The translations under genes were made by a program, and so were the position numbers. A stretch of DNA of 35,550 nt from Minisyncoccota bacterium (GTDB lineage: Bacteria > Patescibacteriota > Minisyncoccia > Minisyncoccales > GBS-2), in the NCBI GenBank assembly GCA_938023415.1, contig CALHEE010000031.1, positions 1-35,550 of the forward strand, given 5' to 3'. Of the stretch, positions 1,557 through 33,532 are shown in pieces; position 1 is the stretch's first letter, and the number at the start of each line of letters is the position of its first letter. The notes beneath the pieces are model-generated. The model was not told where the DNA came from. It saw only the letters and a program-made list of their open reading frames with translations, and did no database searches.

Positions 1557-1571
1557 AGCAATTTAGGAAAT

Positions 1572-1601
1572 TTGACAAATGTTTTTCCCAAAGAATAAAA
1601 T
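1572..1601 (+). promoter_or_regulatory. Sigma70-type promoter before virB6-like gene
   Basis: TTGACA (1572-1577) is followed after 18 nt by TAAAAT (1596-1601), a 5/6 match to TATAAT. The predicted start point near 1608 is only about 6 nt before the ATG at 1614. The VirB6-like gene may therefore have its own short-leader promoter inside the T4SS operon. Confidence 0.5.
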
Positions 1602-1613
1602 TAAATTAAGGAA

Positions 1614-5119: not shown

Positions 5120-5123
5120 AATT

Positions 5124-5738: not shown

Positions 5739-5741
5739 AAT

Positions 5742-9081: not shown

Positions 9082-9084
9082 AAC

Positions 9085-9414: not shown

Positions 9415-9420
9415 ATTAAA

Positions 9421-9555
9421 TTATACGGTCAGACGCCATCTACCTTTTTTTCTCCTTCTCGCTAACACCTTTCTTCCACCTTTAGTTTTTTGTCTTTTTA
9501 AAAAACCATGGGTTCTTTTTCTTTTCTTTTTTTTCGGACGGTAAGTAATTGACAT
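9421..9555 (-). CDS. rpmH: 50S ribosomal protein L34
   Basis: The 44-residue very basic protein, [18 protein letters not shown] to [13 protein letters not shown], is a full-length L34. The start is ATG at 9555. A longer frame to 9609 would add 18 unrelated residues and run through the promoter. A strong promoter ends only 7 nt before this ATG, so the mRNA is probably leaderless or nearly so. It is the first gene of the leftward operon. Confidence 0.96.
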
Positions 9556-9562
9556 ATTTTTT

Positions 9563-9591
9563 ATTTTACCCACTTTTTTTCTTAATGTCAA
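9563..9591 (-). promoter_or_regulatory. rpmH promoter
   Basis: On the minus strand, TTGACA (9591-9586), a 17-nt spacer and TAAAAT (9568-9563) form a near-consensus sigma70 promoter. Initiation would fall at about 9556, next to the rpmH ATG at 9555. Confidence 0.75.
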
Positions 9592-9595
9592 TTCA

Positions 9596-9609
9596 CAATT
9601 TTTACCCAA
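9596..9609 (+). repeat. 14-bp direct repeat, copy 1 (left of dnaA)
   Basis: CAATTTTTACCCAA is identical to 11093-11106 on the far side of dnaA, in the same orientation. The TTTTACCCA core occurs a third time at 9564-9572, where it overlaps the rpmH -10 box. Confidence 0.7.
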
Positions 9610-9663
9610 GATATTAACAAAAAGTCATTTTTTTACGGCCTTTCCTTTTGGCTTGACAAAGGA

Positions 9664-9669
9664 TATAAT
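9664..9669 (+). promoter_or_regulatory. Possible dnaA -10 box
   Basis: A perfect TATAAT ends 5 nt before the dnaA ATG, which would make the message leaderless. No good -35 lies at normal spacing, since the TTGACA at 9653-9658 is only 5 nt away. The AAAGGA at 9658-9663 could instead act as a weak ribosome-binding site for a message started further upstream. Confidence 0.4.
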
Positions 9670-9674
9670 AAAAT

Positions 9675-11033
9675 ATGACCCAAGAAGAACTCTGGCAGGC
9701 GGTTTTAGCACAAATTCAACTAACCATTTCTCCCGCTAATTTTGCTACCTGGTTTAAGGACACAACCATTAGCTCGATTAAAGACGGAGTCGCTTTTATT
9801 TCTGTGCCCAATTCTTTTGCCAAAGAGTGGCTCGAACAAAAATATCACAAGACGATTTTTAAAATTCTTCATGAGTTAAACGAAGAAATTAGAGATGTCA
9901 AATACGAACTAAGTAAACCTTTAACCCAGACGATCAGGAAAAGTTTTATTTCCTTCAAGGAAAGCTCAGGCCAACTAGAGTTTTCTGAATTCGAAGTAGA
10001 CAAAGAAACAAACTTGAACCCAAAGTATACTTTTTCTAATTTTGTCGTCGGGCCCTGTAATGAATTAGCCCAGGCAGCTGCTTTAGCAGTAGCTGAAAAT
10101 CCAGGAAAAGTTTACAATCCCCTTTTCATTTACGGAGGGGTAGGTTTGGGAAAAACCCATCTTCTTCAGGCAATCGGTAATGAAATAATAAAAAATTCAA
10201 AAACAAAAAGGGTAAGGTATGTCCAGGCAGAAAAATTTGTTTCTGCAGTTATTTCTGCTATCCGCAATCATCAGATTGAAAAATTGAAGTCTCTTTATCA
10301 GGTAGTTGATGTTTTAATTATTGATGATATTCAGTTTTTAGCTGGAAAAGAAAAAACTCAAGAAGAATTTTTTTACATTTTTAATTCACTTTATGAAAGA
10401 AACAAACAAATTGTTATTTCTTCAGATCGTTCACCCAGGGCTATTCCTGCTTTAACAGAAAGATTGCGCTCCCGTTTTGAGGGAGGAATGATTGCTGACA
10501 TTACCTTCCCCGATTTTGAAACGAGAATGGCCATTTTAAAAGCAAAATGCCAAGAGAGAAAGGTAGAGTTTTCAGAAGAAATTTTAAATTACATTGCTTC
10601 CACTATCCAAAAAAATATTAGGAAACTTGAGGGAGCTTTAAATATTTTAATCGCCTATCGCAATCTTCAGGGCTTTCCTCCAGACTTAAAAATTGCCAAG
10701 ACCCTCCTAAAAGATTTAACCTCTTCTACTTCGAAGGCAATTACCGCTAAAGAAATTATTAAAGCGGTAGCTGAATTTTATGATCTAAAAGAAAAGGATC
10801 TGCTTTCTAACTCACGAAAAAAAGAAGTAGTGAAACCTAGGCAGGTAGCAATGTTTTTGCTTAGAGAAGAGTTAAAAAGCTCTTTTCCTTTTATTGGCAG
10901 AAAATTCGGCGGAAAAGACCACACTACAGCTATCTATGCTTATGAGAAGATATTAAAAGAAATCGAAAAATCAGAAAATTTGCGCGAGGAAATCGCTTTA
11001 ATAAAACAGAGGTTAACCAGTGGAGAAATATAG
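9675..11033 (+). CDS. dnaA: Chromosomal replication initiator DnaA
   Basis: The 452-residue protein has all four DnaA domains. Domain I begins LWQAVLAQIQLTISPANFATWF. The AAA+ core starts at YTFSNFVVGPCNELAQAAA, with Walker A GGVGLGKTH (about residues 154-162) and Walker B VLIIDDIQF. The C-terminal DNA-binding domain IV includes GRKFGGKDHTTAIYAYEKI. It binds the origin and loads the replication machinery. It is encoded rightward next to the presumed origin, with dnaN following after 121 nt. Confidence 0.97.
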   Translation: MTQEELWQAVLAQIQLTISPANFATWFKDTTISSIKDGVAFISVPNSFAKEWLEQKYHKTIFKILHELNEEIRDVKYELSKPLTQTIRKSFISFKESSGQLEFSEFEVDKETNLNPKYTFSNFVVGPCNELAQAAALAVAENPGKVYNPLFIYGGVGLGKTHLLQAIGNEIIKNSKTKRVRYVQAEKFVSAVISAIRNHQIEKLKSLYQVVDVLIIDDIQFLAGKEKTQEEFFYIFNSLYERNKQIVISSDRSPRAIPALTERLRSRFEGGMIADITFPDFETRMAILKAKCQERKVEFSEEILNYIASTIQKNIRKLEGALNILIAYRNLQGFPPDLKIAKTLLKDLTSSTSKAITAKEIIKAVAEFYDLKEKDLLSNSRKKEVVKPRQVAMFLLREELKSSFPFIGRKFGGKDHTTAIYAYEKILKEIEKSENLREEIALIKQRLTSGEI

Positions 11034-11092
11034 AAAAAACAAAAAAGAAAAAAATACAGGAAAAATTCATCAAAAATCCCATTTTTCTTCCC

Positions 11093-11106
11093 CAATTTTT
11101 ACCCAA
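11093..11106 (+). repeat. 14-bp direct repeat, copy 2 (between dnaA and dnaN)
   Basis: An exact second copy of CAATTTTTACCCAA lies in the 121-nt dnaA-dnaN gap. The rest of the gap is A/T-rich with no clear promoter for dnaN. A weak TTGAGA (11116-11121) with TAAATC after 15 nt is the best candidate. Confidence 0.7.
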
Positions 11107-11154
11107 AAAAATTAATTGAGAAAACAAGTTTTCCTCTAAATCAACTACAAAAAC

Positions 11155-12279
11155 ATGAAATTAACTATTTTAAAAGAAGTGTTAAAAGAAGGTGCAGAAA
11201 TTGCTGGGAAAATTACTGTAAAAACTTTTACTTTACCTATTCTCCAGACCATTTTTTTAAATGCCGAAAAAAACTTTTTAAATATTTCAGCTACTAACCT
11301 TGAAACAGGCGTTATTTGGTGGGGCCTAGCAAAAGTTGAAAAAGAGGGAAAAATTTGTTTGCCAACAAAAATATTTTCTCAGCTGGTAAATTCCTTTCCT
11401 CAAAAATCAATTTCTCTTTGGCAAAAAGATTTTACTCTTTTTATAGAAGGTGAAGGTTTTAAAACCCAAATTTTAGGGACAAACCCTGAAGATTTTCCAA
11501 TTTTCCCTCAAATTCCCCAAAAAAATCCTATTATCGTTGACAGTAGCTCTTTTTGTCAGGCTTTGTTTCAGGTAATGAAAATCCCATCTCCCTCTTCCAC
11601 TCGGCCAGAAATTTCTGGTATTTTTCTTAATTTTCAAGGTAATGTGATAAAGGTGGTTGCTACTGATAGCTTTAGGTTGGCGGAAAAAAGAATTTTTTTA
11701 AAAACTTCTTTGCCAGAAAGTTATTCTTTGATTATCCCCCAATCTGCAGTTAGAGAATTAATCAGTATATTTGGTAATGAGACAAAAGAGTTAAGAATTT
11801 ATCTTTCCCCCCACCAAGTCTGGTTTGAATCTTTAATGTCAGAAATTTCTCATCCTAAAATTCACTACACCTCAAGATTGATTGAGGGTGAATATCCAAA
11901 TTACGAAGAAATTATTCCCAAAAAGTTCAATACTGTCGTTTTTCTCTCTAAAGAAGAATTTTTAGCAAAGATAAAAACAGCCAGTCTTTTTAGCGGAAAA
12001 AGTAATGAAATAAAAATGGAAATTGATCCCAAAGAAGAAACGGTCTTTATTTTTAGCGAAAGTCCGGGTGTGGGAAATTACCAAGGTTCCTTAAAAGGAA
12101 AGGTTAAAGGACAAGAATTAAAAATTTCATTCAATCACCGATTTTTGACCGATGGAATTAACGAAATAAAAACTCCGGAAATAAGCTTTGAATTTACCAA
12201 CGAAGAAGGACCAGCAGTTTTGAGACCGGTGGATAGCGAGGATTATTTTTATGTCGTAATGCCAATTAAGACAAGTTAA
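11155..12279 (+). CDS. dnaN: DNA polymerase III sliding clamp (beta subunit)
   Basis: The 374-residue protein has the DnaN fold. It begins MKLTILKEVLKEGAEIAGKI and contains FRLAEKRIFL after ATDS at the end of the second domain's first half. It ends EDYFYVVMPIKTS, like the usual ...YVLMPMR terminus. The length is normal for the three-domain clamp. It tethers the replicative polymerase to DNA. The gene meets the leftward penicillin-binding protein gene tail to tail with 5 nt between them and no visible terminator. Confidence 0.95.
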   Translation: MKLTILKEVLKEGAEIAGKITVKTFTLPILQTIFLNAEKNFLNISATNLETGVIWWGLAKVEKEGKICLPTKIFSQLVNSFPQKSISLWQKDFTLFIEGEGFKTQILGTNPEDFPIFPQIPQKNPIIVDSSSFCQALFQVMKIPSPSSTRPEISGIFLNFQGNVIKVVATDSFRLAEKRIFLKTSLPESYSLIIPQSAVRELISIFGNETKELRIYLSPHQVWFESLMSEISHPKIHYTSRLIEGEYPNYEEIIPKKFNTVVFLSKEEFLAKIKTASLFSGKSNEIKMEIDPKEETVFIFSESPGVGNYQGSLKGKVKGQELKISFNHRFLTDGINEIKTPEISFEFTNEEGPAVLRPVDSEDYFYVVMPIKTS

Positions 12280-16631: not shown

Positions 16632-17930
16632 TTATTCAGCAGTAACCCTTTCTACTTCCTCAAAAGTTGTCTCTCCTTTTAAAACCTTGAGATACCCATC
16701 TATATGCATTGGTACCATCCCTTTTTTTAGGGCCATTTCTTTTAAATCTACAATCGATGGGCTAGTAAGAATAAATCTTTCGAGATCGTCATCGACAGAA
16801 AAACTTTCAAAAATGCCAATTCGACCACGATAGCCAGTAAAATTACATTCTCGACACCCCTTTCCGACCAAGATTTTTGTTTCTGGCCCCAAAGTTGGAG
16901 CTTTAACTTGAGGGGGAAGGGTTTTAAAGAGAAGTTTCAATCTTTCTAATCTTTTGGCTGGAATGGGTTCCCATTGGCTACACTTTTGACAAATTCTTCG
17001 AACCAATCTCTGGGCGATGACTAAATTTAAGGCGGGGGCAATATTGGTAACACTTTCTCCTAAAGCCTGAAGCCTAGCAACCGTTCCAGCAGCATCGTTA
17101 GTATGGAGGGTGGTTAAAACTAAGTGGCCGGTCAAGGCTGCCTGAAGGGCAATTTTAGCGGTTTCAAAATCGCGAATTTCTCCCACTAAAATCACATCAG
17201 GGTCTTGTCTGACAATTGCTCTGAGAGCATTAGCGAAAGTGTAGCCTTTTGATTCATCAACTTGTGTTTGAGAAACTCCTGGTAAATGATATTCAATAGG
17301 ATCTTCCACGGTAATGATTTTAATTTCAGGATTGACAAGCTTTTGTAAAAAGGCATAAAGGGTAGTAGTTTTTCCCGAACCAGTAGGCCCGGTACAGATG
17401 ATCATTCCTGTCGGTTTTTTTAACTCCTCATAGAAAAGTTGAAGCATGTCCTCTCTCAAACCCAAAGCTTCCATACTCACTACCCATTTAGGATTTAAAA
17501 TTCTCATGACAATTGTTTCTCCATATTCGGAAGGGAGAGTAGAGGTTCTGATTTCAATCGAATTGTTTTCAATTAAAAGAGAAAAACGACCATCTTGAGG
17601 ACGATCAGTGACATTGATTTTTAATCCAGAGAGAACTTTAAGACGAGAAGTTAAAAGACGATAGGTTTCATGGCTTAAAAACAAAACATCGTGTAAAACC
17701 CCATCTATTCTCACTCTTAAAAGGACATTTTCTTTTTTTGGCTCAAAGTGAATATCGGAAACATCCAGATAAAAAGATCCTCCCATGATAATTTCTACTA
17801 AATCAGTGATATCGTAAAAAGAAAATCGTTCAATCTCCTCCTTTAAATCAGGGATGCACTTTATCTTCTCTTTCACTCGAAGAACCTTTTCGGGTGAGAT
17901 TCTAATTTGGCCAACAATTTTTTCTCTCAT
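16632..17930 (-). CDS. GspE/PilB-type secretion or type IV pilus ATPase
   Basis: The 432-residue protein has the GspE/PilB core. Walker A GPTGSGKTTT lies near residues 178-187. The Asp box is VEDPIEY, the Walker B ILVGEIRDFETA and the His box TGHLVLTTLHTNDA. A zinc-binding four-cysteine segment follows (CQKC ... CREC). These enzymes power extension of type IV pili or type II secretion from the cytoplasm. Full PilB is about 560 residues; this one lacks the N-terminal MshEN-type domain. No pilin or PilC gene lies nearby. TAAACT ends 5 nt before the ATG as a likely -10. Confidence 0.9.
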   Translation of the reverse strand: MREKIVGQIRISPEKVLRVKEKIKCIPDLKEEIERFSFYDITDLVEIIMGGSFYLDVSDIHFEPKKENVLLRVRIDGVLHDVLFLSHETYRLLTSRLKVLSGLKINVTDRPQDGRFSLLIENNSIEIRTSTLPSEYGETIVMRILNPKWVVSMEALGLREDMLQLFYEELKKPTGMIICTGPTGSGKTTTLYAFLQKLVNPEIKIITVEDPIEYHLPGVSQTQVDESKGYTFANALRAIVRQDPDVILVGEIRDFETAKIALQAALTGHLVLTTLHTNDAAGTVARLQALGESVTNIAPALNLVIAQRLVRRICQKCSQWEPIPAKRLERLKLLFKTLPPQVKAPTLGPETKILVGKGCRECNFTGYRGRIGIFESFSVDDDLERFILTSPSIVDLKEMALKKGMVPMHIDGYLKVLKGETTFEEVERVTAE

Positions 17931-19407: not shown

Positions 19408-20022
19408 ATGGAAAAAGAAAAGATTACCCCAGAGGAAATTCGATCACTTCTTAAAATTCCAGGAAAAGTGAGAGGGCAAGTTTTTTCGACTGATTTAGAA
19501 TATCTCAGAAAAAAGAAAGGAAAAGAAGGCGTAGAATTACTTAAAAAGAAGATGAAAGAATTGGGAAACCCAATAGATTATGAGAGGATAAAAATTTTTG
19601 AATGGTATCCAGTAGGTTTGAGGGCGGTTTCTTTATTAGTAATCAAAGAACTTTTTCAGTTAGGAGACAAAGAGATCTCAGAAATGGGAAATTTGGCACC
19701 AAAATTTTCTTTCATTATTAAGTTAATAATGAAACACTTTCTTTCCATTGAAAGAGTTTTTCAGGAATCTCCCAGCTATTGGGAAAAACATTACACAGTC
19801 GGGAAATTGGAGCCGGTAGAGCTTAATGAAAAAGAAAAATATCTCAAAGTTCATCTGAAAGATTTCAAAGTTCATCCCATTTTATGCACCTATTTGTTTG
19901 AGGACGGTTATTTTTTAAGAATTGCCCAATATGTTTTAAAAAGCCCAACGATATTATCCAAAGAGACAAAGTGTGTTTTTAAGGGAGACCCTTATCATGA
20001 ATGTTTAATCAGCTGGCAATGA
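19408..20022 (+). CDS. DUF2378/V4R-like sensory protein, copy 1
   Basis: This 204-residue soluble protein has no signal peptide. It resembles the ~200-residue myxobacterial paralogous family (TIGR02265/DUF2378) and V4R/heme-NO-binding-like ligand-sensing domains. The pattern includes FEWYPVGLRAVSLLVIKELF, YWEKHYTVGKLEPVEL and a terminal CVFKGDPYHECLISW, typical of the V4R end. I am moderately sure of the fold class and unsure of the exact family. It has a close relative in the next gene. Such domains sense small molecules; the ligand here is unknown. Cys and His near the end could bind metal or heme. Confidence 0.5.
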   Translation: MEKEKITPEEIRSLLKIPGKVRGQVFSTDLEYLRKKKGKEGVELLKKKMKELGNPIDYERIKIFEWYPVGLRAVSLLVIKELFQLGDKEISEMGNLAPKFSFIIKLIMKHFLSIERVFQESPSYWEKHYTVGKLEPVELNEKEKYLKVHLKDFKVHPILCTYLFEDGYFLRIAQYVLKSPTILSKETKCVFKGDPYHECLISWQ

Positions 20023-20026
20023 AAAT

Positions 20027-20632
20027 ATGCTCACACTAAAAGAGGAATTTCAAAAATTAAGTCTTGAGAAGATAAAAGGAGAGGTAATTGGTTTGGCCCT
20101 TGAAAATCATTTTAACTTTATTTTAGAAAAAGAAGGAATGGAAAGGGTAAAGGAAGTAGAAGAAAGGTTGAATGAGTTAGGTTATCCTCTAAGATATAAG
20201 GAAATAAAAAGTTTTCAATGGTATCCCAGGATTATCGATGAGGCAATCTATTTTGTAATTAAAAAGACTTTGGCCTGGAATGATGAGAAATTTCGAGAAA
20301 GTGGGAAATGGGGGGCGAAGGTTTCCTTTATCACAAAGATTATGATGCGATATTTCCTCTCGATCGAAGAGATCTTTGCCGAAATTAATAATTATTGGCG
20401 GAAATATTACACGATTGGGAATTTAGAGCCAAAGGAAATAAACTTAAAAGAAAAATATTTAGTCTTTGAATTAAAAAATTTTCCTATTCTCTTTCCTGAA
20501 CATTGCAGGTATTGGGAAGGGTATTTTTGGCAGGTGGCCTCTTATGTTTTGCCGAAAGAAAAGCTTAAACTTACGGAAACTGAATGTACTTTTAAAGGGG
20601 GAAAGACTCATCAGTTTAAGGGCACCTGGTAA
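20027..20632 (+). CDS. DUF2378/V4R-like sensory protein, copy 2
   Basis: This 201-residue protein is clearly paralogous to the preceding one. Shared blocks include QWYP, VSFITKIMMRYFLSIEEIF, YWRKYYTIGNLEPKEI, KEKY, ASYVLPK and CTFKG. It starts 4 nt after copy 1. The C-terminal CTFKGGKTHQFKGTW replaces the first copy's HEC segment, so the putative ligand or metal site differs. Tandem duplication with divergence suggests a heteromer or two ligand specificities. Otherwise it is as copy 1: cytoplasmic, with no output domain. Confidence 0.5.
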   Translation: MLTLKEEFQKLSLEKIKGEVIGLALENHFNFILEKEGMERVKEVEERLNELGYPLRYKEIKSFQWYPRIIDEAIYFVIKKTLAWNDEKFRESGKWGAKVSFITKIMMRYFLSIEEIFAEINNYWRKYYTIGNLEPKEINLKEKYLVFELKNFPILFPEHCRYWEGYFWQVASYVLPKEKLKLTETECTFKGGKTHQFKGTW

Positions 20633-20647
20633 TTATAAGAAAGAACA

Positions 20648-21232
20648 ATGAAGAAAAACGATTCTCAAAAAATTATTATTGAACAACTTTCTCAGGACTT
20701 AGAAGATTTAGTAAATTATCTCAAAGACCTGTGGCAGTTTTTGCCCATACCTATCCTCTATGTAAATCCTCTTTTTGTCATTCTTGATGCGAACCCAGCT
20801 TTAGAAAATTTCTTTGGAGTGAGGGCAATAGAAATAATTGGAGAAAAAATTGAGGTTCTTTTAGGAGAAAAACCAATTACTCAAGAAATCTTAGAGACTC
20901 TTTCGAAAGAAAAAAAGATAGAAAACAAAGAAATAGAAGTTTTTACCAGAAATGGGAAAAAGATAGTGAGTGTTTCAGCCAATAGTCGGGAGGACGAGAA
21001 GGGGAAGATTATTGGGTATTATTTTTTATTTCTTGATATTACCACCCAACAGGAACTTCGAGAAAAACTTGAGGAAAAAGTGAGAGAAAGAACAAAAGAG
21101 CTACAAGAAAAAATTGATGAACTTGAAGCTTTTCAAAAGCTTACCGTGGGGCGAGAATTGAAAATGATAGAATTAAAAGAAGAAATCGAGAGATTAAAAA
21201 AAGAATTAGAAAGGTCGAAAAAAGAAAAATAA
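20648..21232 (+). CDS. PAS-domain coiled-coil signalling protein
   Basis: The 194-residue cytoplasmic protein has an N-terminal helix and then a PAS domain (about 30-140) with IPILYVNPLFVILDANPALE and the closing YYFLFLDITTQQE. A signalling helix (LEEKVRERTKEL) leads to a tail containing LTVGRELKMIELKEEIERLK. There is no kinase, cyclase or receiver domain. The same tail type ends the HAMP receptor two genes on. It probably relays ligand or redox state through coiled-coil contacts with the HAMP receptor or kinase; that is inference. Confidence 0.75.
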   Translation: MKKNDSQKIIIEQLSQDLEDLVNYLKDLWQFLPIPILYVNPLFVILDANPALENFFGVRAIEIIGEKIEVLLGEKPITQEILETLSKEKKIENKEIEVFTRNGKKIVSVSANSREDEKGKIIGYYFLFLDITTQQELREKLEEKVRERTKELQEKIDELEAFQKLTVGRELKMIELKEEIERLKKELERSKKEK

Positions 21233-21239
21233 ATTGTTT

Positions 21240-22028
21240 ATGAAAAAAATCATCTCCTTTTTTCTACTTTTTGGTTTTTTAATCGTTGGGTTAGTTTACT
21301 ATAAATTTTTTCTTCCGCCAAAAAAAGAAAAAGTTACTGACCCAAAAATAAAAGAAATTTTAAATCGAGGAAAAATTTTGGTGGGTACGGAAGCTAGCTA
21401 TCCGCCGATGGAATATTTAGACGAGGCAGGTAATTTTCTAGGCTTTGATATCGATCTGGCAAAAGAAATCGCTGCCGATTTAGGGGTGGAGGTGGAATTT
21501 GTGAATATTCCTTGGGAGAAACTTTTTGATGCCTTAGCTGAAGGAAAGGTTGATCTGGCAATATCTGCCATCACTATTACTCCAGAAAGGATGGAAATTT
21601 TGAGTTTTTCTGTTCCATATCTTAATGTTGGACAAGTGATTGTCGCTAAAAATGACACGCAAATTAAAGGGATCGCTGACCTTCAGGGAAAGGTTCTGGG
21701 AGTTCAAAGAGAAACGACGAGCGAAGAGGAAGCAAAAAAATATACTGACCCCAGTTTGGTCAAAAGCTTTCCGAACTATGACCTGGCCAAAGAGGCTTTG
21801 GAGCGAGGAGAAATTGAGGCGATAATCATTGATTATCCCGCCGGGTTGGCGATGGTGGCAAAAGATAAAAATTTAAAAATAGTTGGCAAGCCCTTTACCC
21901 AAGAATTCTATGGCGTAGCTCTTCAAAAAGGACAAGAGGTTCTTTTAGAAAAAGTTAATCAGACCATTAAAAGGCTTCAACAATCAGGAACCCTTCGGGC
22001 TCTCGAAGAAAAATGGTTCAGTAAATAA
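21240..22028 (+). CDS. Family 3 extracellular solute-binding protein (amino-acid type)
   Basis: An N-terminal hydrophobic segment (about residues 5-23) acts as anchor or uncleaved signal; there is no lipobox Cys. The SBP_bac_3 fold follows: GKILVGTEASYPPMEYLDEAGN, GFDIDLAKEIA, then AISAITITPERMEILSFSVPY with the Arg that binds the ligand carboxylate. AIIIDYPAG follows, with the Asp that binds the amino group. The length fits a single domain. I chose ATG 21240 over an in-frame TTG two codons upstream. No ABC permease or ATPase gene accompanies it; a HAMP receptor gene starts 5 nt later. Confidence 0.88.
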   Translation: MKKIISFFLLFGFLIVGLVYYKFFLPPKKEKVTDPKIKEILNRGKILVGTEASYPPMEYLDEAGNFLGFDIDLAKEIAADLGVEVEFVNIPWEKLFDALAEGKVDLAISAITITPERMEILSFSVPYLNVGQVIVAKNDTQIKGIADLQGKVLGVQRETTSEEEAKKYTDPSLVKSFPNYDLAKEALERGEIEAIIIDYPAGLAMVAKDKNLKIVGKPFTQEFYGVALQKGQEVLLEKVNQTIKRLQQSGTLRALEEKWFSK

Positions 22029-22033
22029 CCATC

Positions 22034-23092
22034 ATGAGATTGCGTTTCACCCTTAATTTAAAAATGATTTTCACCACCCTTTTGGTAGTGATTTTAAGTT
22101 TTTTATTCTTGGCTTATTTAAATATAAAAAGGCAAAGGAATTTTTTAGAACTTGCCATTGAAAATTTTGGGATTAATACTGCTCAAGCTTTAGAAGCTAA
22201 TATTAGGAGCAGGGAGGAATTAGCTGAGGTAAAAAGACTTCAAACAACCATTCTCAAACTTCTTTATTCTAACCCATTGATTAATTCTATCACCGTTAAT
22301 TTGCCTGTGGAAGAAAAATTAAAAGTAGTTGCCTCCAATGAAAGTGAATTAATTGGAAGAGAGGCATCCCTAGAGAATTTATCTTCTTATCGTGATGGAA
22401 AAATCAGGACAGCCCGAATCAAAGGAAGAGAAAAAAGAGAGCTATTAAGAGTAATTGTTCCTATTCGCTTGAGTGGTGAGATCGTTGGTACCTATGAGAT
22501 AAAGCTCAATCTCGAACCATTCAAAGAATTGATTTTGAAGGGGGAGAAAGAATTTTTTATTACTGCCCTTTTTTCTCTGGCTTTTATTGTCATCTCTCTT
22601 TTTTTATTAATTCACATTAGCGTGATCAAACCGGTGAAAGAAATTCAAAAAGGAATGAGAGAGATAGGAGAGGGAAAATTAGATTTTAGAATAACAAGCA
22701 AGAGAAAAGATGAGTTTGGTGATCTTATTTCAGGATTTAATCAGATGGCTGATCAACTCCAAAAAAATTATCAACAGCTAAGAGAAATTCAAAAAAACCT
22801 TGAAAATAAAGTCATGGAAAGAACTCGAGAATTAGAAGAAGCAAAAATGGTTTTGGAAATAAAAGTGAGAGCAAGAACAAGAGAACTGCGAGAATTGGCT
22901 GAGTCTTTAGAAAAGAAGGTAAGAGAGAGAACGAAGGCGCTTGAAGAAAGCCAAAAAGAACTTCAAAGAAAAGTTAGAGAATTAGAAAAATTCCATCAAT
23001 TGGCGGTTGAGCGAGAATTAAAGATGTTGGAAATGAAAAAGAGAATTCGAGAATTAGAAAGAGAACTAGAAGAAAAAAACAAAAAGCAGTAA
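22034..23092 (+). CDS. HAMP receptor with coiled-coil output, no kinase domain
   Basis: A first transmembrane helix (about 10-28), an extracytoplasmic sensor domain of about 145 residues (Cache-like in spacing) and a second helix (about 176-200) come first. A HAMP domain (about 200-250, IKPVKEIQKGMREIGEGKLDF) follows. The rest is a long helix with three 18-residue repeats of LExKVxxRTREL and a final AVERELKMLEMKKRIRELE tail. There is no histidine kinase, methyl-accepting or cyclase domain. The gene directly follows the amino-acid binding protein gene, so ligand-loaded binding protein may dock on it (inference). Confidence 0.8.
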   Translation: MRLRFTLNLKMIFTTLLVVILSFLFLAYLNIKRQRNFLELAIENFGINTAQALEANIRSREELAEVKRLQTTILKLLYSNPLINSITVNLPVEEKLKVVASNESELIGREASLENLSSYRDGKIRTARIKGREKRELLRVIVPIRLSGEIVGTYEIKLNLEPFKELILKGEKEFFITALFSLAFIVISLFLLIHISVIKPVKEIQKGMREIGEGKLDFRITSKRKDEFGDLISGFNQMADQLQKNYQQLREIQKNLENKVMERTRELEEAKMVLEIKVRARTRELRELAESLEKKVRERTKALEESQKELQRKVRELEKFHQLAVERELKMLEMKKRIRELERELEEKNKKQ

Positions 23093-23094
23093 AA

Positions 23095-24087
23095 ATGAAG
23101 TTCAAGATTATTTTCATTTTATTTTTTCTTTGTTCTTTTCTTTTCTATTACTTCTACTTTCTTTGGTACTCTTTTTCTTATTTTCCACCGGCGAAGAATG
23201 TCGCAATTTTTCCTCCTCTTCAACCTGCAGAGGGACCAGGGGGGAAAGATTATCTTAGTGAAAAGATAGCGATTTTGGAATTGAAAAGAGAAGAAGGGAC
23301 TATTTTTTTGTTTTTGCCCAAAAACATTAGTTTAGAATCTTTGCCAATAATTTTAGTCTTACCAAATTCTTTATTTCCTTCTGCAACCTCCTTTTCTCAA
23401 ACACCAGGATTGATCCATTTGGCAAAAAAAGGCAACATTCTTGTTGTTCCTGTTTCTCAACAAAAGTTATCTGACCTTTTTGATTATCATCGATTAATCG
23501 ATAAGGTTTATAATTTGAGTAAAGAAGGGTTGTTTAAGGTTCAAGAGCTTGCCCCAAACAATGACTTTTCTAAGTTTGCTATCATTGGAATTTCTTTGGG
23601 GGGTTCAATCGCCACCCATTTAGTTCAGACTGATTTACCCCAGCCAAAAGTTTTCATTTTGATTGCTCCTACCGAAGGTCTACCTTTATTTTCTTCTCAG
23701 TTCTATGGCATCCCGTTTCGTGACTTAAAAACTCTTCCATATCATTCCTTTTTGCTTGGAATTTTAGCCGAAAACGATCGAATTGCTTCCCCATCTCAAA
23801 TTAAAAAACTTTTTAAAACTTCTTTTTCAAAAGAAAAACATCTTTTCAAAATTCCTTCTGATACCTACGGAAATCCACCTTTAATTAGCAATCATCGAAC
23901 TCTTTTTCATCAGTATAACGCTTTGAACTTTTATGGTTCTTTTAAACTAATCGAAGCTACTTTAGAATGTGCTTTTTACTTTCGATTTTGTCATATTGCT
24001 AAAGGAGAAACTCAAGAAACTTTTTTTATGGGCAAGTGGAGCAATGATTATCCAGTGAAACAAATCATCAGCATTCCTTTAAAATAA
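23095..24087 (+). CDS. Membrane-anchored or exported alpha/beta-hydrolase-like protein
   Basis: An N-terminal hydrophobic helix rich in Phe/Tyr (about 5-28) is followed by an alpha/beta-hydrolase-like domain. The nucleophile elbow is GISLGG (G-x-S-x-G). A later AENDRIA could supply the acid and SNHRTLFHQ the histidine. GPGGKDY occurs near the start of the domain. The substrate is unknown; an ester, amide or lipid is possible. It starts 2 nt after the HAMP receptor gene, so it belongs to the sensory operon. It should act outside the membrane and may release or modify the sensed ligand (speculation). Confidence 0.65.
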   Translation: MKFKIIFILFFLCSFLFYYFYFLWYSFSYFPPAKNVAIFPPLQPAEGPGGKDYLSEKIAILELKREEGTIFLFLPKNISLESLPIILVLPNSLFPSATSFSQTPGLIHLAKKGNILVVPVSQQKLSDLFDYHRLIDKVYNLSKEGLFKVQELAPNNDFSKFAIIGISLGGSIATHLVQTDLPQPKVFILIAPTEGLPLFSSQFYGIPFRDLKTLPYHSFLLGILAENDRIASPSQIKKLFKTSFSKEKHLFKIPSDTYGNPPLISNHRTLFHQYNALNFYGSFKLIEATLECAFYFRFCHIAKGETQETFFMGKWSNDYPVKQIISIPLK

Positions 24088-24112
24088 AAAGATGGTTTAA
24101 TTTTATAATAAA

Positions 24113-24142
24113 TTGGCAACAAAAATTTCAAAGTGTTAAAAT
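24113..24142 (+). promoter_or_regulatory. Possible promoter of the potD-like/kinase pair
   Basis: TTGGCA (24113-24118), an 18-nt spacer and TAAAAT (24137-24142) predict initiation about 6 nt before the ATG at 24155. The layout is the same as the virB6 promoter. A TATAAT at 24104-24109 without a -35 is an alternative. Confidence 0.4.
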
Positions 24143-24154
24143 TAAATAAAAACC

Positions 24155-25246
24155 ATGCCCAAAAAAATTTTGTTAATTATCCCCTTTATCTTGATTATTT
24201 TAATCACTACCAGCTTCTTTTTCTCTCCTAAAAAACCTTTACCACCGACTCCTTTAAAAGAGGAAGAGCTTAATATTTTCATTTGGGAAAATTATCTTTC
24301 CCAAAAAGTAGTTGAAGAATTTGAAGCGAAATTCGGGGTTAAGGTAAATATTGACACTTTTGAAGATACCGATCAAATGTTCGCTGTTTTACAGTCTCAG
24401 CCTGAAAAATATGATCTCATCGTGGCCGAAGATGACTTAGTGGTTTTAATGAAAAACCTAAAATTACTTTCTCCTCTTGATCATTCAATGATTCCTAATT
24501 TAATTTATTTAAAAGAAGAAGCAAAACAAAATCAGTATGACTTTGGTAATGTCTTTTGCCTTCCTTATGTCGCTGGTTTTACCGGAATTGCCATTAACGA
24601 AAAGTATGTGAAAGATTTCGATCAAACCAGGAAGATTCTTTGGGATGAAAACTACAAAGGAAGAATTTCCATGCCCAATAACCTTGAAGAAGTTTTAACT
24701 AATGCCTTATTTTATTTAGGTTACCCAATCAACACTCCTACCAAAGAACAACTTGCTAAGGCAATAGAGCTAGCTTTGCAACAAAAAGATCTTATCATTG
24801 GGTACGACGATCCCATTACTCAAAGGAATTTGATGATTAACGAAGAGGCCTGGATTGCTTATATTTATTCCACGGAAGTTTTCCCTATCCAAAAAGCCAA
24901 TCCAAATGTTAAGTTTTTTGCCCTTAAAGAAGGAGTTTTACTTTGGGCTGACAATTGGTGTATCCCTAAAGATGCTCCCCACAAACACCTTGCCCATCAA
25001 TTTTTAAATTATCTTTTAGATCCAAAAGTAAGCGCTCAAAATTCCGAAGAGATTGGTGCTCTAATGGTTAATGAGGCAGCCAAAAATTTTATCTCTCCAG
25101 AAATTAAAAAAAGCTTAGAAGGGCTTGATTTTCCAAGAGAAAGAGAAATCCTTTTTAAGAGCCAATACTTTCTTGCTAGCACAGACCCAACAATCAGGGA
25201 AGCTATTAATCTTTTAGAGAGTGAGTTATTTTCTAGCGCCCCCTAA
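24155..25246 (+). CDS. PotD/PotF-like extracellular polyamine-type binding protein
   Basis: The N-terminal hydrophobic segment (about 4-22) has no lipobox Cys and is a signal or anchor. The mature part follows E. coli PotD/PotF organisation: LNIFIWENYLSQKVVEEFE, YDLIVAEDDLVVLM, GLD-like turns and WENYKGR-type WDENYKGRISM. The W-x-D of LLWADNWCIP corresponds to the Trp/Asp that hold spermidine in PotD. The length (363) is normal. No potABC transporter genes are near. The gene is followed 12 nt later by a Cache histidine kinase, so a sensing role is likely. Confidence 0.82.
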   Translation: MPKKILLIIPFILIILITTSFFFSPKKPLPPTPLKEEELNIFIWENYLSQKVVEEFEAKFGVKVNIDTFEDTDQMFAVLQSQPEKYDLIVAEDDLVVLMKNLKLLSPLDHSMIPNLIYLKEEAKQNQYDFGNVFCLPYVAGFTGIAINEKYVKDFDQTRKILWDENYKGRISMPNNLEEVLTNALFYLGYPINTPTKEQLAKAIELALQQKDLIIGYDDPITQRNLMINEEAWIAYIYSTEVFPIQKANPNVKFFALKEGVLLWADNWCIPKDAPHKHLAHQFLNYLLDPKVSAQNSEEIGALMVNEAAKNFISPEIKKSLEGLDFPREREILFKSQYFLASTDPTIREAINLLESELFSSAP

Positions 25247-25258
25247 TTTTAAGTAAAA

Positions 25259-27568
25259 ATGAAAGGTTTTAGGTTTTCATTTAAAACAAAAACAATCTTA
25301 ATTTTACTTTTTTTTGGAATAGTACCACTTCTTCTGAATGGATTTTTTATTCTTTCTCAGTTGGAAAGTTATCTTAAAAATAAAACAATTCAAAATTTAG
25401 AAGAAATTGAGAGATTGGTAGCGGTTCAGATTGAAGACTTCGTTGCTGAAGCTTTCAATAATGTGATCTTTCTTTTTAAAACGCCTGTTTTCAGCTCATT
25501 AACCGTTCCTTTGGAAGAAAAGATTGCTGAAATTAAGAAAATCGCCAGCTATTATCCTAACTTTCAAGATATTACCCTTTTGGACAAAGACGGTCGCATC
25601 TTATTTTCTTCTTCATTTAAATTTTATGGAAAATTTTCAAGTAATTTTTGGTTTTTACAAGCTAAAGAAAAAAAAGAAGTGATCATTTCTGATATCTATG
25701 CTGTTTTAGATCCTACTCGACCTACTTTAAGTTTTTTTCTCCCTATTTTAGATGAAAAAAACGAACCGATCTTTTTTATTTCCGTTCAGCTGAATATGGA
25801 AAAATTTTTAGAGATTATTAATTCCGTGAAAGTTGGAGAAAGGGGGCAGGCTTTTTTAATTAATGAACGAGGAGATATTATTGCCCACCCTTACCGATCA
25901 CTCCTTTTTGAAAAAATTTCACCTGACTATCCATTAAAAGAGGCAGTTTTCCTCAAAAAAGGGGTGGTAGAATTTACTTTTCGCGAAGAAAAGATGGTTG
26001 GAGCCTTCCGGATAATCGAAAATTTTCAGCAATATCCAGGGAAGAATTGGCATTTAATTTTAGCTCAACCAAAAGAAGAAATTCTCAGTTTAGTAAGGCA
26101 AATTAGAAAGCAAATTTATTTCTTTTTATTTTTGTCTTCTATAGCCATTGCCTTGATTGCCTCTCTTTTGAGTAGATCCATCACTCAACCTTTAGAGAAA
26201 TTTATTTCCGCAGCTCACCAAGTGACTGCTGGTAATTTCCAGGTTCAAGTAGAAGTTAAGACCAACGATGAATTTGAAGATTTAGCTACCACCTTCAATC
26301 AGATGATTAAAGAATTAAGAAATTCTTATCTTAAACTCAACGAGGCCAAAGCAAACCTTGAAAGACAAGTTCGGGCAAGAACAGAACAGTTAGAAACTTT
26401 GGCTAAAAGTTTAGATAAGGAAGTAGAAAAACGGACTCGGGAATTAAACCTAAAAATTGAAGAATTAAGAAAATCGAGAACAGCTCTCATTAATATCTTA
26501 GAAGATGTTGAAGAAGCAAGAAAAAAGGCAGAAGAAGAAAGAAAGAAAACTAATGCTTTAATTGTCAACTTTAGCGATGGTCTTTTATTCTTTGATCAGG
26601 AAGGAAAACTTTCTCTAATTAATCCTCAGGCAGAAAAATTTTTGAAAGTTAACAGCCAGGAGGTGATTGGCCAATCTCTTTTCCAATTAAAGAAAATTCC
26701 TTCTTTTCAGCCTTTGATTGAGCTTTTAGGAGAGAAAATTCAAGAAATTTTTCGAAAAGAATTAAAAATGGGAGAAGATTTAATTTTAGAAGTTTCTGCT
26801 ATCTCCGTAATCAGCGAAAAAGAGCAACTAGGACATTTAATAGTTTTACACAATATTACCAGAGAAAAAATGGTAGAAAGAATAAAAACTGAATTTGTTT
26901 CCTTGGCCGCCCACCAGCTCAGAACACCATTATCAGCTATCAAGTGGACCTTGAGGATGATACTGGATGGAGACTTAGGTGAAGTTAGCCCAGATCAAAA
27001 AGCCCTTCTTGAAAAATCCTATCTGGCCAACGAGAGAATGATTAATTTAATTAATGACCTTTTGAATGTTGCCAGAATTGAAGAAGGAAGATATCTTTAC
27101 AAGCCTCAACCTGAAGATATTGGAATAATTTTTAGCGAGGTGATAGAGCTTCATAAAGAAAAGGCTGAAAGAAAAAAGATTGAAATAATTTTTAAAAAGC
27201 CAGAAAGCTTACCAAAAGTATTAGTAGATAAAGAAAAAATAGCCCTGGCCATTAGTAATCTCGTCAATAATGCCATTGAATATACCTTAGCAGGGGGAAA
27301 AGTAACTGTTGAGATCCAAAAAAGAGAAAAAGAATTGTTGTGTCTTGTAAGCGATACAGGTATTGGAATTCCTAAAGATCAGCAGTCGAGAGTGTTTACC
27401 AAATTTTTCCGCGCGACAAATGCAATGAGAATGCAAACAGAAGGTACGGGATTAGGGCTTTTCATTACCAAAAACATTATTGAAGCCCATGGGGGAAAAA
27501 TCTGGTTTCAGTCAGAAGAAGGAAAGGGTACAACTTTTTACTTTAGCTTACCATTAATAGAAAACTAG
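25259..27568 (+). CDS. Cache-HAMP-PAS hybrid-free sensor histidine kinase
   Basis: This 769-residue kinase has a transmembrane helix at about 11-31 and an extracytoplasmic double-Cache-type sensor (about 35-280). A second helix lies at about 286-306 and HAMP at about 307-360. A coiled coil with two 18-residue signalling-helix repeats leads to a PAS domain (about 435-540). HisKA has the phospho-acceptor His at residue 552 in LAAHQLRTPLSA. The HATPase_c domain has NLVNNAIEYT, DTGIGIP and GTGLGLFI. No receiver is fused. Likely partners are the two receivers encoded next. It sits 12 nt after the PotD-like gene. Confidence 0.93.
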   Translation: MKGFRFSFKTKTILILLFFGIVPLLLNGFFILSQLESYLKNKTIQNLEEIERLVAVQIEDFVAEAFNNVIFLFKTPVFSSLTVPLEEKIAEIKKIASYYPNFQDITLLDKDGRILFSSSFKFYGKFSSNFWFLQAKEKKEVIISDIYAVLDPTRPTLSFFLPILDEKNEPIFFISVQLNMEKFLEIINSVKVGERGQAFLINERGDIIAHPYRSLLFEKISPDYPLKEAVFLKKGVVEFTFREEKMVGAFRIIENFQQYPGKNWHLILAQPKEEILSLVRQIRKQIYFFLFLSSIAIALIASLLSRSITQPLEKFISAAHQVTAGNFQVQVEVKTNDEFEDLATTFNQMIKELRNSYLKLNEAKANLERQVRARTEQLETLAKSLDKEVEKRTRELNLKIEELRKSRTALINILEDVEEARKKAEEERKKTNALIVNFSDGLLFFDQEGKLSLINPQAEKFLKVNSQEVIGQSLFQLKKIPSFQPLIELLGEKIQEIFRKELKMGEDLILEVSAISVISEKEQLGHLIVLHNITREKMVERIKTEFVSLAAHQLRTPLSAIKWTLRMILDGDLGEVSPDQKALLEKSYLANERMINLINDLLNVARIEEGRYLYKPQPEDIGIIFSEVIELHKEKAERKKIEIIFKKPESLPKVLVDKEKIALAISNLVNNAIEYTLAGGKVTVEIQKREKELLCLVSDTGIGIPKDQQSRVFTKFFRATNAMRMQTEGTGLGLFITKNIIEAHGGKIWFQSEEGKGTTFYFSLPLIEN

Positions 27569-27592
27569 AGAGCTTTTAGAAAAGATTGTTTT

Positions 27593-27601
27593 TGTTATAA
27601 T
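27593..27601 (+). promoter_or_regulatory. Extended -10 promoter upstream of the receiver pair
   Basis: TGtTATAAT is a perfect extended -10 with no clear -35. Initiation near 27608 would give the receiver genes a leader of about 140 nt, the longest in the window. The leader holds a weak hairpin (ACCTTT / AAAGGT near 27695-27725) but nothing I recognise as a riboswitch. Confidence 0.45.
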
Positions 27602-27747
27602 AAAATTATCAGCAACTTAATTGACCAAGCTTTTTAAAAAAATAAAATTAAATAAAGGTCGGATAAAACTAGAGTAAAATTTTTCTTGTCTAAACCTTTC
27701 TGCTTTTTGCTACTTTCTAAAGGTCTTTTAAGTTATCGTTAAACAGT

Positions 27748-28119
27748 ATGGCTAAAAAAATATTGTTGGTCGAAGACGAAGAAATCATGATCGATCTTCT
27801 TCAAAAAAAGTTGGGAAAAGAAGGCTATACGGTTTTTGTTGCCAAAGAGGGAGAAGAAGGTTTAAAAAAAATGAGAGAAGTTAATCCAGATTTGGTTTTA
27901 CTTGACATTATCATGCCCAAAAAAGGGGGGTTTGAAGTGATGGAAGAAATGAACAGAGATCCAAAATTAAAAAATATCCCGGTGATTGTGATTTCCAATT
28001 CTGGCCAGCCGGTAGAACTTGATAGAGCAAAAGAACTTGGGGCGAAAGACTGGCTTATTAAAACTGAATTCGATCCAAAAGAGGTTTTAGAAAAGGTAAT
28101 AAAACAAATTGGTAAATAA
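27748..28119 (+). CDS. Stand-alone response regulator receiver, copy 1
   Basis: The 123-residue CheY-like receiver has the acidic pair in VEDEE, phospho-acceptor Asp53 (LLDIIMP), Ser in VIVISNS at the switch Thr/Ser position, and the conserved Lys in WLIKTEF. It has no output domain. Such proteins act by docking on partners, for example pilus motors, or as phosphorelay shuttles. It follows the histidine kinase by 179 nt with its own promoter and is followed 2 nt later by a second receiver. Confidence 0.93.
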   Translation: MAKKILLVEDEEIMIDLLQKKLGKEGYTVFVAKEGEEGLKKMREVNPDLVLLDIIMPKKGGFEVMEEMNRDPKLKNIPVIVISNSGQPVELDRAKELGAKDWLIKTEFDPKEVLEKVIKQIGK

Positions 28120-28121
28120 AT

Positions 28122-28490
28122 ATGGCAAAGAAAATTCTTATCGTTGAAGATGATAAATTTTTAAGAGAATTAATTACCCGGAAGTTAGAAAGCGAAGGAT
28201 ACAAGATAATTGAGGCAGTAGATGGGGAAGAGGGGATAAAAAAGGCCACTGAGGAAAAATTAGACCTCATCTTACTCGATCTTATCTTGCCTGGAATTGA
28301 TGGTTTTGAGGTGTTAACCCAGCTTAAACAAAATGAAAAATTAGCCTCCATCCCGGTGATCATTTTGTCTAACCTTGGACAAAGGGAGGAAATAGAAAAG
28401 GGATTGAAATTGGGAGCAATTGATTATTTAGTGAAAGCTCATTTTACCCCTGGTGAGATTATTGAGAAAATCAAAAATATTTTAAAATAA
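28122..28490 (+). CDS. Stand-alone response regulator receiver, copy 2
   Basis: The 122-residue receiver has VEDDK, phospho-acceptor Asp53 (LLDLILP), VIILSNLG and YLVKAHF with the conserved Lys. It is paralogous to the preceding receiver. The chemistry is intact and there is no output domain. Having two receivers after one kinase suggests branching of the signal or a phosphate sink. Confidence 0.93.
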   Translation: MAKKILIVEDDKFLRELITRKLESEGYKIIEAVDGEEGIKKATEEKLDLILLDLILPGIDGFEVLTQLKQNEKLASIPVIILSNLGQREEIEKGLKLGAIDYLVKAHFTPGEIIEKIKNILK

Positions 28491-31087: not shown

Positions 31088-33532
31088 ATGCCGTTTTTCT
31101 TTTTCCTTCCTTTCTTTTTCCTCCTTCCTCTTTTACTCTTTTTTCTTTTTCAAAAAATTAGTAAAGAGAAAAATTTTTTGCGGGGGATGAATTTGGCCCT
31201 CTTCTTAGTTACCCTTCCCCAAAAAGCATCAAAAGAAAAAGAATTTTCTTTAGCTCAGTATTTAAAAGTGGCGGAACAGTTTTACAGTTCTTTATCAGCA
31301 ATCAAAGAAAAAAATTTCCTTTTGAAACTTTTAGCTGGTGATCCCTTTTTGGTTTTTGAAATTGCTGTCCCTAGAATTGGGGAAGAAATTTACTTTTATT
31401 TAGCTTCGCCAAGGTCAATAGCCCAATTGGTAGAAAAACAAATTCTTGCTTTTTGGCCCGAAGCTCAAATTCAACCTACTCCTGACTACAACATTTTCAA
31501 TCCAGTCGGTTTTTCCCTAGGAGCGAGCGCCTATTTGGTAAAATCCCCTATCTTCCCTCTAAAACCGCCAAAGGACTTTGAAGTTGACCCTCTTTCTGCT
31601 ATTACCTCAGTTTTTACCAAATTAGCCCGAGAAGGAGAAGGGGCAGCAGTTCAAATTTTAATTAGAAATAGCCAAAGGCAATTAAAACCACTCTCTCAAA
31701 GGACAATTGAATTAATAAAAGAAAGAAAAAAAACAAAAGAGACCTTACCAACTTTTAAAGGAGAAACAGGAGCTTTTTTAAGAGTATTAAGCGAGATTTT
31801 CTTTCCCACTAAAACTAAAAAGAAAAACTCCTCTGAAACAACTTCTTATTCACCTTCCCTTACCCCTGAAGAAGAAGAACTTATTACCCTTCTTTCTAAT
31901 AAGACATCCCGGCCTCTTTTTGACACCAACATCAGGATTTTAGCTTCTGCTCCCAGCGAAAAGAGAGCCAATGAGATTTTGAGTCAATTGGAGGCTTCTT
32001 TTGAACAATTTAATCATCCAAACTTAAATCAATTGAGGTTCAAAAGATTTTCTGGCAAAAAGTTAAAAAAACTTTTTTACAATTTTTCTTTTAGGATCTT
32101 TAATGAATCAGAAATCTTAGTGCTTTCTTCTGAAGAATTAGCGACCATTTTTCATTTCCCCCCACCCCAATTATCCACCCCTTTTCTTAAAAGATTAAAA
32201 ACGAGGGAAGTTCCCCCACCTTCAAATTTACCAGAAGAAGGAATTGTTATCGGAAAAAATGTTTTTCGGGGCGAAGAAAAATTAGTAAAAATGCTTAAAG
32301 AAGACCGTCGGCGCCACTTTTACATTGTCGGTCAGACAGGAACTGGAAAATCAGTTTTACTTCAGGAAATGATTAGGCAAGACATGGCAGAAGGAGAAGG
32401 AGTGGCTTTAATTGATCCTCATGGTGATTTGGCAGAAAGAGTTTTGGGCTTAGTACCTCCTTCTCGGATCGAAGATTTAATTTACTTTGATCCTGGAGAT
32501 TTAGAAAGGCCTTTGGGTTTAAATATGTTAGAGTATGATTTAAAATTTCCAGAGTCAAAAACTCTTGTTGTCAACGAAATTTTAGAAATTTTTGAAAAGC
32601 TTTATAATTTAAAAGCTTTAGGTTTTGGAGGGCCAATTTTTGAACAATACATGAGGAATGCCCTTTTGTTGGTGATGGAAGATCCAGAATCTGGCAATAC
32701 CTTGGCGGAAGTGCCACGAGTGTTGGCTGATAAAAATTTTAGAAAATATAAACTTTCAAAATGTAAAAACATTATTGTCAAAAATTTTTGGGAATTAGAA
32801 GCAGAAAAAGCAGGAGGGGAAGCTGCCTTAGCCAACATGGTTCCTTACATTACCAGCAAAATGAATATTTTCATTGCCAACGATTTAGTAAGACCGATTA
32901 TCGCTCAAGAGACCTCTTCTTTTAACTTTCGCGAGATTATGGATCAAGGGAAGATTTTAATTGTCAATCTTTCAAAGGGTCGATTGGGTGAGATTAACAG
33001 TTATTTATTAGGGATGATCATTGTGGGAAAAATCTTAATTGCAGCTTTCTCACGAACTGACCTTCCAGAAGAAAAAAGGCGCGACTTTTACTTGTATATT
33101 GATGAGTTCCACAACGTGACGACTAAAACGATAGCTTTTGCTTTGGCAGAAGCGAGAAAATTTAGGTTAAATCTTATTTTGGCCAACCAGTACATTGGCC
33201 AATTGGATGAGGAGACGAGAAAAGCAATTTTTGGTAACGTGGGAACAATTTTGGCCTTTCGGGTTGGTCCTGAAGATGCTAAATACTTAATTTCTGAATT
33301 TGAACCAACTTTTAGTGAAGAAGATTTAGTTAACTTTGATAATTATCATGGAGCTTTAAAGCTTTTAATCAACGGGCAACCCTCAAATCCATTCAGTATT
33401 GTTACTTTTCCTCCCTCTAAAGAAAATCAAGAAGTAAAAGAAATGGCTAAAAAAATTTCTCGGGAAAGATATGGCCGAGACCGAGAAAAAGTAGAAACAG
33501 CATTGTATGAAAGGCTAACAAGATATTATTAA
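31088..33532 (+). CDS. VirD4/TraG-like coupling ATPase
   Basis: The 814-residue protein starts with a very hydrophobic membrane anchor (residues 1-20, almost all Phe/Leu/Pro). A ~380-residue N-terminal region follows. The motor domain has Walker A VGQTGTGKS near residues 413-421 and Walker B LYIDEFHN near 668-675. FNVGTI-like GNVGTILAFRVG is typical of TraG/TraD/VirD4 and HerA-like DNA pumps. It would bring DNA or protein substrates to the T4SS channel encoded at 45-7529. It is longer than classical VirD4 (~650) because of the N-terminal region. Confidence 0.87.
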   Translation: MPFFFFLPFFFLLPLLLFFLFQKISKEKNFLRGMNLALFLVTLPQKASKEKEFSLAQYLKVAEQFYSSLSAIKEKNFLLKLLAGDPFLVFEIAVPRIGEEIYFYLASPRSIAQLVEKQILAFWPEAQIQPTPDYNIFNPVGFSLGASAYLVKSPIFPLKPPKDFEVDPLSAITSVFTKLAREGEGAAVQILIRNSQRQLKPLSQRTIELIKERKKTKETLPTFKGETGAFLRVLSEIFFPTKTKKKNSSETTSYSPSLTPEEEELITLLSNKTSRPLFDTNIRILASAPSEKRANEILSQLEASFEQFNHPNLNQLRFKRFSGKKLKKLFYNFSFRIFNESEILVLSSEELATIFHFPPPQLSTPFLKRLKTREVPPPSNLPEEGIVIGKNVFRGEEKLVKMLKEDRRRHFYIVGQTGTGKSVLLQEMIRQDMAEGEGVALIDPHGDLAERVLGLVPPSRIEDLIYFDPGDLERPLGLNMLEYDLKFPESKTLVVNEILEIFEKLYNLKALGFGGPIFEQYMRNALLLVMEDPESGNTLAEVPRVLADKNFRKYKLSKCKNIIVKNFWELEAEKAGGEAALANMVPYITSKMNIFIANDLVRPIIAQETSSFNFREIMDQGKILIVNLSKGRLGEINSYLLGMIIVGKILIAAFSRTDLPEEKRRDFYLYIDEFHNVTTKTIAFALAEARKFRLNLILANQYIGQLDEETRKAIFGNVGTILAFRVGPEDAKYLISEFEPTFSEEDLVNFDNYHGALKLLINGQPSNPFSIVTFPPSKENQEVKEMAKKISRERYGRDREKVETALYERLTRYY

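Follow-up and report, generated by a model that had tools for sequence, protein, structure and literature searches.

Solute-binding proteins as co-sensors, V4R domains as kinase inputs and output through receivers alone are all already known (PMC10384115, PMC10715001, PMC5847659). CuaD-CuaS-CuaR is a three-component system made up of a solute-binding protein, a sensor kinase and a regulator (PMC10384115). V4R acts as an input in the V4R-bearing kinase PcrS (PMC10715001), and in DmpR and its relatives three cysteines and one glutamate hold zinc (PMC7264223, PMC10715001). Archaeal two-component networks are dominated by stand-alone receivers, with V4R, HNOB and MetOD1 as linked domains (PMC5847659), and PilG/PilH (PMC10519157) and PixE-PilB1 (PMC7690835) are earlier cases in which receivers control type IV pili. 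Here we describe a sensory locus from a Minisyncoccota bacterium, located at positions 19408–28490 of contig CALHEE010000031.1 (the whole stretch analysed, 35,550 nucleotides, is referred to as the window). With moderate confidence, we read this locus from its sequence as a modular multi-input phosphosignalling hub, in which one kinase would serve exchangeable sensors and two receiver-only proteins, RR1 and RR2, would act by binding other proteins; the contacts between the partners, the ligands and the phosphotransfer steps are those we infer.

The locus resembles CuaD-CuaS-CuaR in that a gene for a solute-binding protein, which is a co-sensor in that system, adjoins the kinase gene. Unlike CuaD-CuaS-CuaR, solute-binding proteins here also pair with kinase-less receptors, there are several inputs per kinase, and the regulators carry no DNA-binding domain. 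Two receivers without a DNA-binding output are also a feature of the Pil-Chp and cyanobacterial Tax/Pix systems, but our locus has no methyl-accepting chemotaxis protein (MCP), its kinase is of the HisKA type rather than CheA, no PATAN domain was seen, and the pilus is only a presumed target. Output by protein contact is shared with the archaeal two-component networks, from which the locus differs in its bacterial lineage, its conserved gene order, and the addition of solute-binding proteins and kinase-less receptors. In agreement with the original prediction, we found no named system of this composition, and a literature search that took in few subscription papers gave no description of a fixed core combined with a swappable sensor slot and with kinase-less receptors that share a tail.

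All ten open reading frames (ORFs) claimed for the island are present on the + strand, at precisely the positions given for them. Their spacing, put at mostly 2–15 nt, is tight in seven of the nine gaps (from gene 1 to gene 10: 4, 15, 1, 5, 2, 67, 12, 179 and 2 nt), the exceptions being those of 67 and 179 nt. A Pfam profile scan of the ten proteins (match limit E≤0.01) found PAS, SBP_bac_3, HAMP, SBP_bac_8, a dCache-HAMP-PAS-HisKA-HATPase array and two Response_reg domains. This agrees with the PAS, solute-binding, HAMP, PotD-like, histidine kinase and receiver labels given earlier; the DUF2378 and hydrolase labels fared less well, as described below. As had been predicted, profile scans of the ten proteins detected no DNA-binding, MCP or cyclase domain.

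The core of the locus consists of three genes. The sensor histidine kinase (25259–27568, +; PF00512, PF02518) has the architecture dCache-HAMP-coil-PAS-HisKA-HATPase with His552 in the H-box, and both H552 and the HATPase motifs are invariant in a 32-member kinase alignment. RR1 (27748–28119, +; PF00072; SNSGQ...KTEFDP class) and RR2 (28122–28490, +; PF00072; SNLGQ...KAHFTP class) are receiver-only proteins that retain the phospho-acceptor Asp of LLDI/LLDL. The NSGQ/NLGQ strings seen in two other proteins of 612 and 357 aa, by inspection a transketolase and a DHH-like protein, were set aside as chance. We compared 247 genomes of the same Patescibacteria order, mostly draft assemblies, with mechanical gene calls in the relatives. 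Kinases of the island type (E≤1e-90) occur in 187 of them. In 51 genomes the kinase is again accompanied by RR1, RR2 or both between the expected flanks; the order is exonuclease, sensors, kinase, RR1, RR2, mutM/holA, though not every genome has every member. RR1 is present in 45 and RR2 in 47 of these 51 core loci; mutM/holA lies downstream in 50, and the 5'-3' exonuclease lies upstream in 42, the contig ending in 7. The recurrence of the kinase-RR1-RR2 core between constant flanks is more than chance.

In contrast to the core, the slot between the exonuclease and the kinase is variable. It is occupied mainly by sensor genes, 0 to 9 in number (nine in L057), with V4R proteins, PAS-coil proteins, Cache/HAMP receptors, solute-binding proteins and FIST proteins among its contents in relatives. 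Tail-bearing sensors are found in 40 of the 51 core loci and V4R proteins in 33, although the loci were partly fetched by V4R, which inflates the V4R counts. In four genomes that lack the kinase (G244, G104, G168 and G231) the exonuclease is joined to mutM/holA with no gene of the system between them. The conserved order and the empty sites therefore indicate that the core is retained or absent as a whole, whereas its sensors differ from genome to genome. The original prediction, which treated the ten genes as a unit and pointed to a neighbourhood comparison, thus stands for the core, the V4R proteins and the tail-bearing sensors and falls for the ten-gene unit, the genes for the SBP_bac_3-type, PotD-like and hydrolase proteins being variable. 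At a further locus (L315, G207), the exonuclease and mutM are separated by a kinase-like fragment of 199 aa, possibly a remnant of a lost core.

The same modules are found in both fused and split versions. The dCache-HAMP-coil part of the kinase (25343–26473, +) has a homolog in a relative that is a separate receptor without a kinase domain, with 33% identity between kinase residues 29–405 and L090:7750–9087; the PAS domain of the soluble PAS protein of the island shares 40% identity with the PAS at the N terminus of an orthologous kinase in a relative; and in Deltaproteobacteria (L145) a V4R-like part is fused to GAF-PAS-PAS-HisKA_3-HATPase. RR1 and RR2 are themselves fused into one 281 aa protein in L129 (12908–13750). 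Read most simply, these arrangements would have all the sensors signal to a single kinase and RR1 act jointly with RR2. In the hub that we propose, the kinase (PAS-HisKA-HATPase) would gather signals from exchangeable sensors encoded directly 5' of its gene and would pass phosphate to the stand-alone receivers, which would then bind other proteins. Cytoplasmic inputs would come from two V4R/H-NOX-fold sensors, with a predicted metal site and small-molecule pocket, and from one PAS protein, while extracytoplasmic ligands would be brought by two solute-binding proteins to the HAMP receptor and to the dCache of the kinase itself.

Where this signal would go is suggested by the rest of the genome, which is ∼0.6 Mb in size and 97% complete. 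None of its seven receivers has a recognised output domain, six of them being 121–123 aa long. MCPsignal (PF00015), found in 7 of 14 controls, is absent, as is the OmpR-type DNA-binding domain Trans_reg_C, other classes of DNA-binding regulator not having been searched separately. These absences make output by protein contact, as first proposed, the reasonable reading. One of the possible partners named with it, the pilus ATPase at 16632–17930 of the window, does not hold up, as its gene stays beside tsaE/exonuclease at empty sites; its nearness to the island is therefore no evidence of partnership. The better pilus lead is a separate operon on contig C8 of the same genome (L201 4984–9361), where PilB-, receiver-, PilT- and PilC-like genes follow one another. 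Its receiver, encoded between pilB and pilT with no adjacent kinase, shares 57% identity with RR2. In addition, a kinase-receiver pair lies directly 5' of a second PilB-/PilC-like pair on contig C20 (L200 5201–9553).

A receiver adjoins pilT in 26 of the 30 relatives first inspected. Among 89 chosen genomes, it was found beside pilT in 42/52 kinase-positive versus 11/37 kinase-negative genomes (family-stratified p=0.022 without the ambiguous genome G001), and at 1/8 confirmed empty or kinase-less sites. These tests were exploratory, correct for relatedness only in part, and were repeated without the genomes in which absence of the kinase is ambiguous. The presence of pilT itself, which is near-universal (223/247 genomes), is a low-power correlate. 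The type IV pilus motor, reached through RR1/RR2 or through the pilB-pilT receiver, would be the most likely known output machine, though the data are suggestive only. It may instead be that RR1 and RR2 act on a non-pilus target (envelope assembly, T4SS-like secretion or metabolism), or that RR2 is a phosphate sink for RR1, and to this we give appreciable weight, if less than an even chance. Phosphate-sink receivers are known from CheY pairs; a further related receiver shares 65% identity with RR2 and is encoded, together with a kinase, between genes that on inspection are FtsW/RodA-like and O-antigen-ligase-like; and the window itself carries genes resembling those of type IV secretion systems (T4SS) on either side of the island, PrgI/VirB4-like and TrwB-like, at 4706–7529 and 31088–33532. 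However, the clearest conserved effector linkage of related receivers is that to pilB/pilT. On contig C15 (L203 3241–3807) PPDK- and PEPCK-like genes (labels by inspection) enclose the gene for a receiver of 188 aa, whose C-terminal extension is rich in Cys.

The usual picture of Patescibacteria is one of stripped-down cells, and little is known of how they sense hosts or surroundings. The locus probably lets cells without standard gene-switch regulators or chemoreceptors report their surroundings to protein machines such as pili. It provides a concrete, order-wide example of a sensory locus in which the kinase and receivers are fixed and the sensors swappable, in a genome without BPD_transp_1, MCP or OmpR-type domains. 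If the pilus link holds, it would offer a path, open to testing, by which chemical signals could lead to attachment or DNA uptake.

Two of the sensors in the island are kinase-less receptors with a common C-terminal tail. The soluble PAS-coiled-coil protein (20648–21232, +; PF13426) ends in a coiled-coil tail (21095–21229, +) with the motif LEAFQKLTVGRELKMIELKEEI, read from the translation; this tail is also present on sensors of relatives. The membrane receptor (22034–23092, +; PF00672) has two hydrophobic stretches, a HAMP domain and a coiled coil, and its translation ends in the same kind of tail, LEKFHQLAVERELKMLEMKKRI (22970–23089, +). A homolog in L096 is an sCache-HAMP protein that adjoins an SBP_bac_3 gene. 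The tails are alike around GRELKM/ERELKM, and the two proteins stop roughly where the kinase starts in the fused proteins, so that they probably act on the kinase by coiled-coil contacts. The shared tail motif gives a handle on communication between kinase-less receptors and a kinase. It is conceivable, although we hold this as rather doubtful, that the whole is a split-receptor kinase, in which interchangeable kinase-less receptors plug the coiled coils of their tails into a shared kinase and the two receivers carry the signal to the pilus motor without transcription. If true, a genome of ∼0.6 Mb would in this way acquire or lose its senses as gene cassettes.

The first two proteins of the island are predicted to be V4R-type sensors with an H-NOX-like fold, a metal site and a ligand. 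Sensor a (19408–20022, +; 204 aa) has putative metal-site residues C160, E186, C189 and H197, all four of which are retained in sensor b (20027–20632, +; 201 aa), which is 41% identical to it. Neither matches a Pfam family at E≤0.01, but 36 of 67 aligned family members match Pfam V4R (PF02830) at this limit (best 1.4e-11). None of the 67 matches DUF2378, and this earlier label was dropped. An AlphaFold2 (AF2) model of sensor a, built from a 67-row alignment, has a pLDDT of 95.6, and Foldseek matched it near full-length to H-NOX domains (∼195 residues, TM 0.68/0.75), followed by MopR/PoxR and TRAPP subunits. Despite this likeness to the H-NOX gas sensors, heme binding is not supported and was rejected: no family member matches the HNOB profile (0/67), the YxSxR heme-binding motif is not conserved (the string occurs in 2/110 V4R homologs), and the 110 homologs have no strongly conserved His in the 100–130 helices. 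With MopR/DmpR/PoxR and PcrS the sensors share the V4R domain, and C160, E186, C189 and H197 align with the zinc ligands of MopR at positions 155, 178, 181 and 189, although the profile comparison is weak (E 0.54–0.57) and the positions were hand-counted. Of 110 homologs, 83 show the C/E/C/H pattern, and the two Cys tend to be retained or absent as a pair (both in 102, C160 only in 3, C189 only in 0, neither in 5). Unlike MopR/DmpR/PoxR and PcrS, the V4R proteins here stand alone, with one to at least 12 copies per genome, the whole chain is H-NOX-shaped, and the fourth ligand position is His instead of Cys.

V4R proteins are found in 64 of the 247 genomes of the order and in 7 of 380 drawn across the phylum, 5 of these 7 coming from the same order. 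Among the kinase matches listed, they co-occur with N-terminal-PAS kinases (42/55 genomes versus 22/192 without). With a narrower V4R set as query, the named relatives include members of Nealsonbacteria, Portnoybacteria and Gribaldobacteria; those in Saganbacteria, WOR-3 and DHVE2 archaea are outliers. The DHVE2 relatives (loci L141, L142 and L143) are 36% identical to the window protein, and a GAF-PAS kinase adjoins in L143; transfer between domains or a binning error is possible.

An alternative to the hub is that HK-RR1-RR2 (HK, the histidine kinase) is an ordinary two-component system whose sensor-like neighbours are unrelated to it and accumulated by chance, the site near the origin being permissive to insertions. 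The hydrolase, solute-binding protein and FIST genes do vary between genomes, and in 5 of the 51 core loci the exonuclease lies directly 5' of the kinase with no sensor between. V4R genes also form tandem arrays of four to nine genes without a kinase nearby (L068 6426–13204 in G159, L072, L080 and L081), and judged by eye, without a family scan, the genes adjoining these stray arrays had no function in common. However, the genes in the slot belong mostly to sensor families and are confined to one side of the kinase, tail-bearing sensors are widespread in the core loci, the same modules occur fused and split, and the HAMP/tail family has no match in its own genome outside the sensory locus. We therefore regard a chance gathering as unlikely.

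There are nonetheless several observations that weigh against a modular hub. The many V4R copies in arrays away from any kinase mean that V4R is also active in other settings or with different partners. The 67 and 179 nt gaps, which precede the PotD-like gene and RR1, each contain a good sigma-70-like match (24113–24142 and 27621–27648) and would allow separate transcripts; with 38 such matches observed across the whole region versus 33 expected, more than one transcript is only a hint. Synteny with housekeeping genes reflects in part slow rearrangement, and the kinase-negative genomes G001, G099 and G053 are ambiguous, being assembly gaps with contigs that end at the locus. Finally, the pilT association shrinks on family stratification and could reflect a general loss of two-component genes, and the pilB-pilT receiver could be served by an orphan kinase on contig C32.

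Both solute-binding proteins probably have a sensory role and would feed the hub. The first, of the SBP_bac_3 type (21234–22028, +; PF00497, 2.3e-44), is extracytoplasmic with an N-terminal hydrophobic stretch and a likely true start at ATG 21240. The second is PotD-like (24155–25246, +; SBP_bac_8) and 40% identical to a PotD-like protein encoded directly upstream of a dCache-HAMP receptor in L091. Across relatives, five families of solute-binding protein occur in the cluster (SBP_bac_3, SBP_bac_8, ABC_sub_bind, Peripla_BP_6 and Bmp), most of them adjoining a Cache/HAMP receptor. The BPD_transp_1 permease (PF00528) is absent from the genome, whereas the same search was positive in 14/14 controls, and with no such permease both proteins most likely serve sensing. 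That they are instead transport proteins feeding ABC importers encoded elsewhere, with the kinase regulating uptake, is highly improbable: SBP_bac_3 and PotD-like proteins are normally parts of ABC importers, as are the best NCBIfam relatives, but this is a 97% complete genome without the permease and with no OmpR-type regulator for switching uptake genes.

The gene at 23095–24087 (+) encodes a putative anchored alpha/beta hydrolase with a GISLGGS motif, its hydrolase label resting on a weak Hydrolase_4 match below the cut-off (20.5 bits versus 27). No homolog was found in the neighbourhoods of relatives; it was seen at this locus alone and is an accessory gene. Elsewhere in the window, two long ORFs of 503 and 648 aa without a Pfam match lie at 45–3560, and yidC, dnaA and dnaN are found at 8350–12279, placing the island near a likely replication origin.

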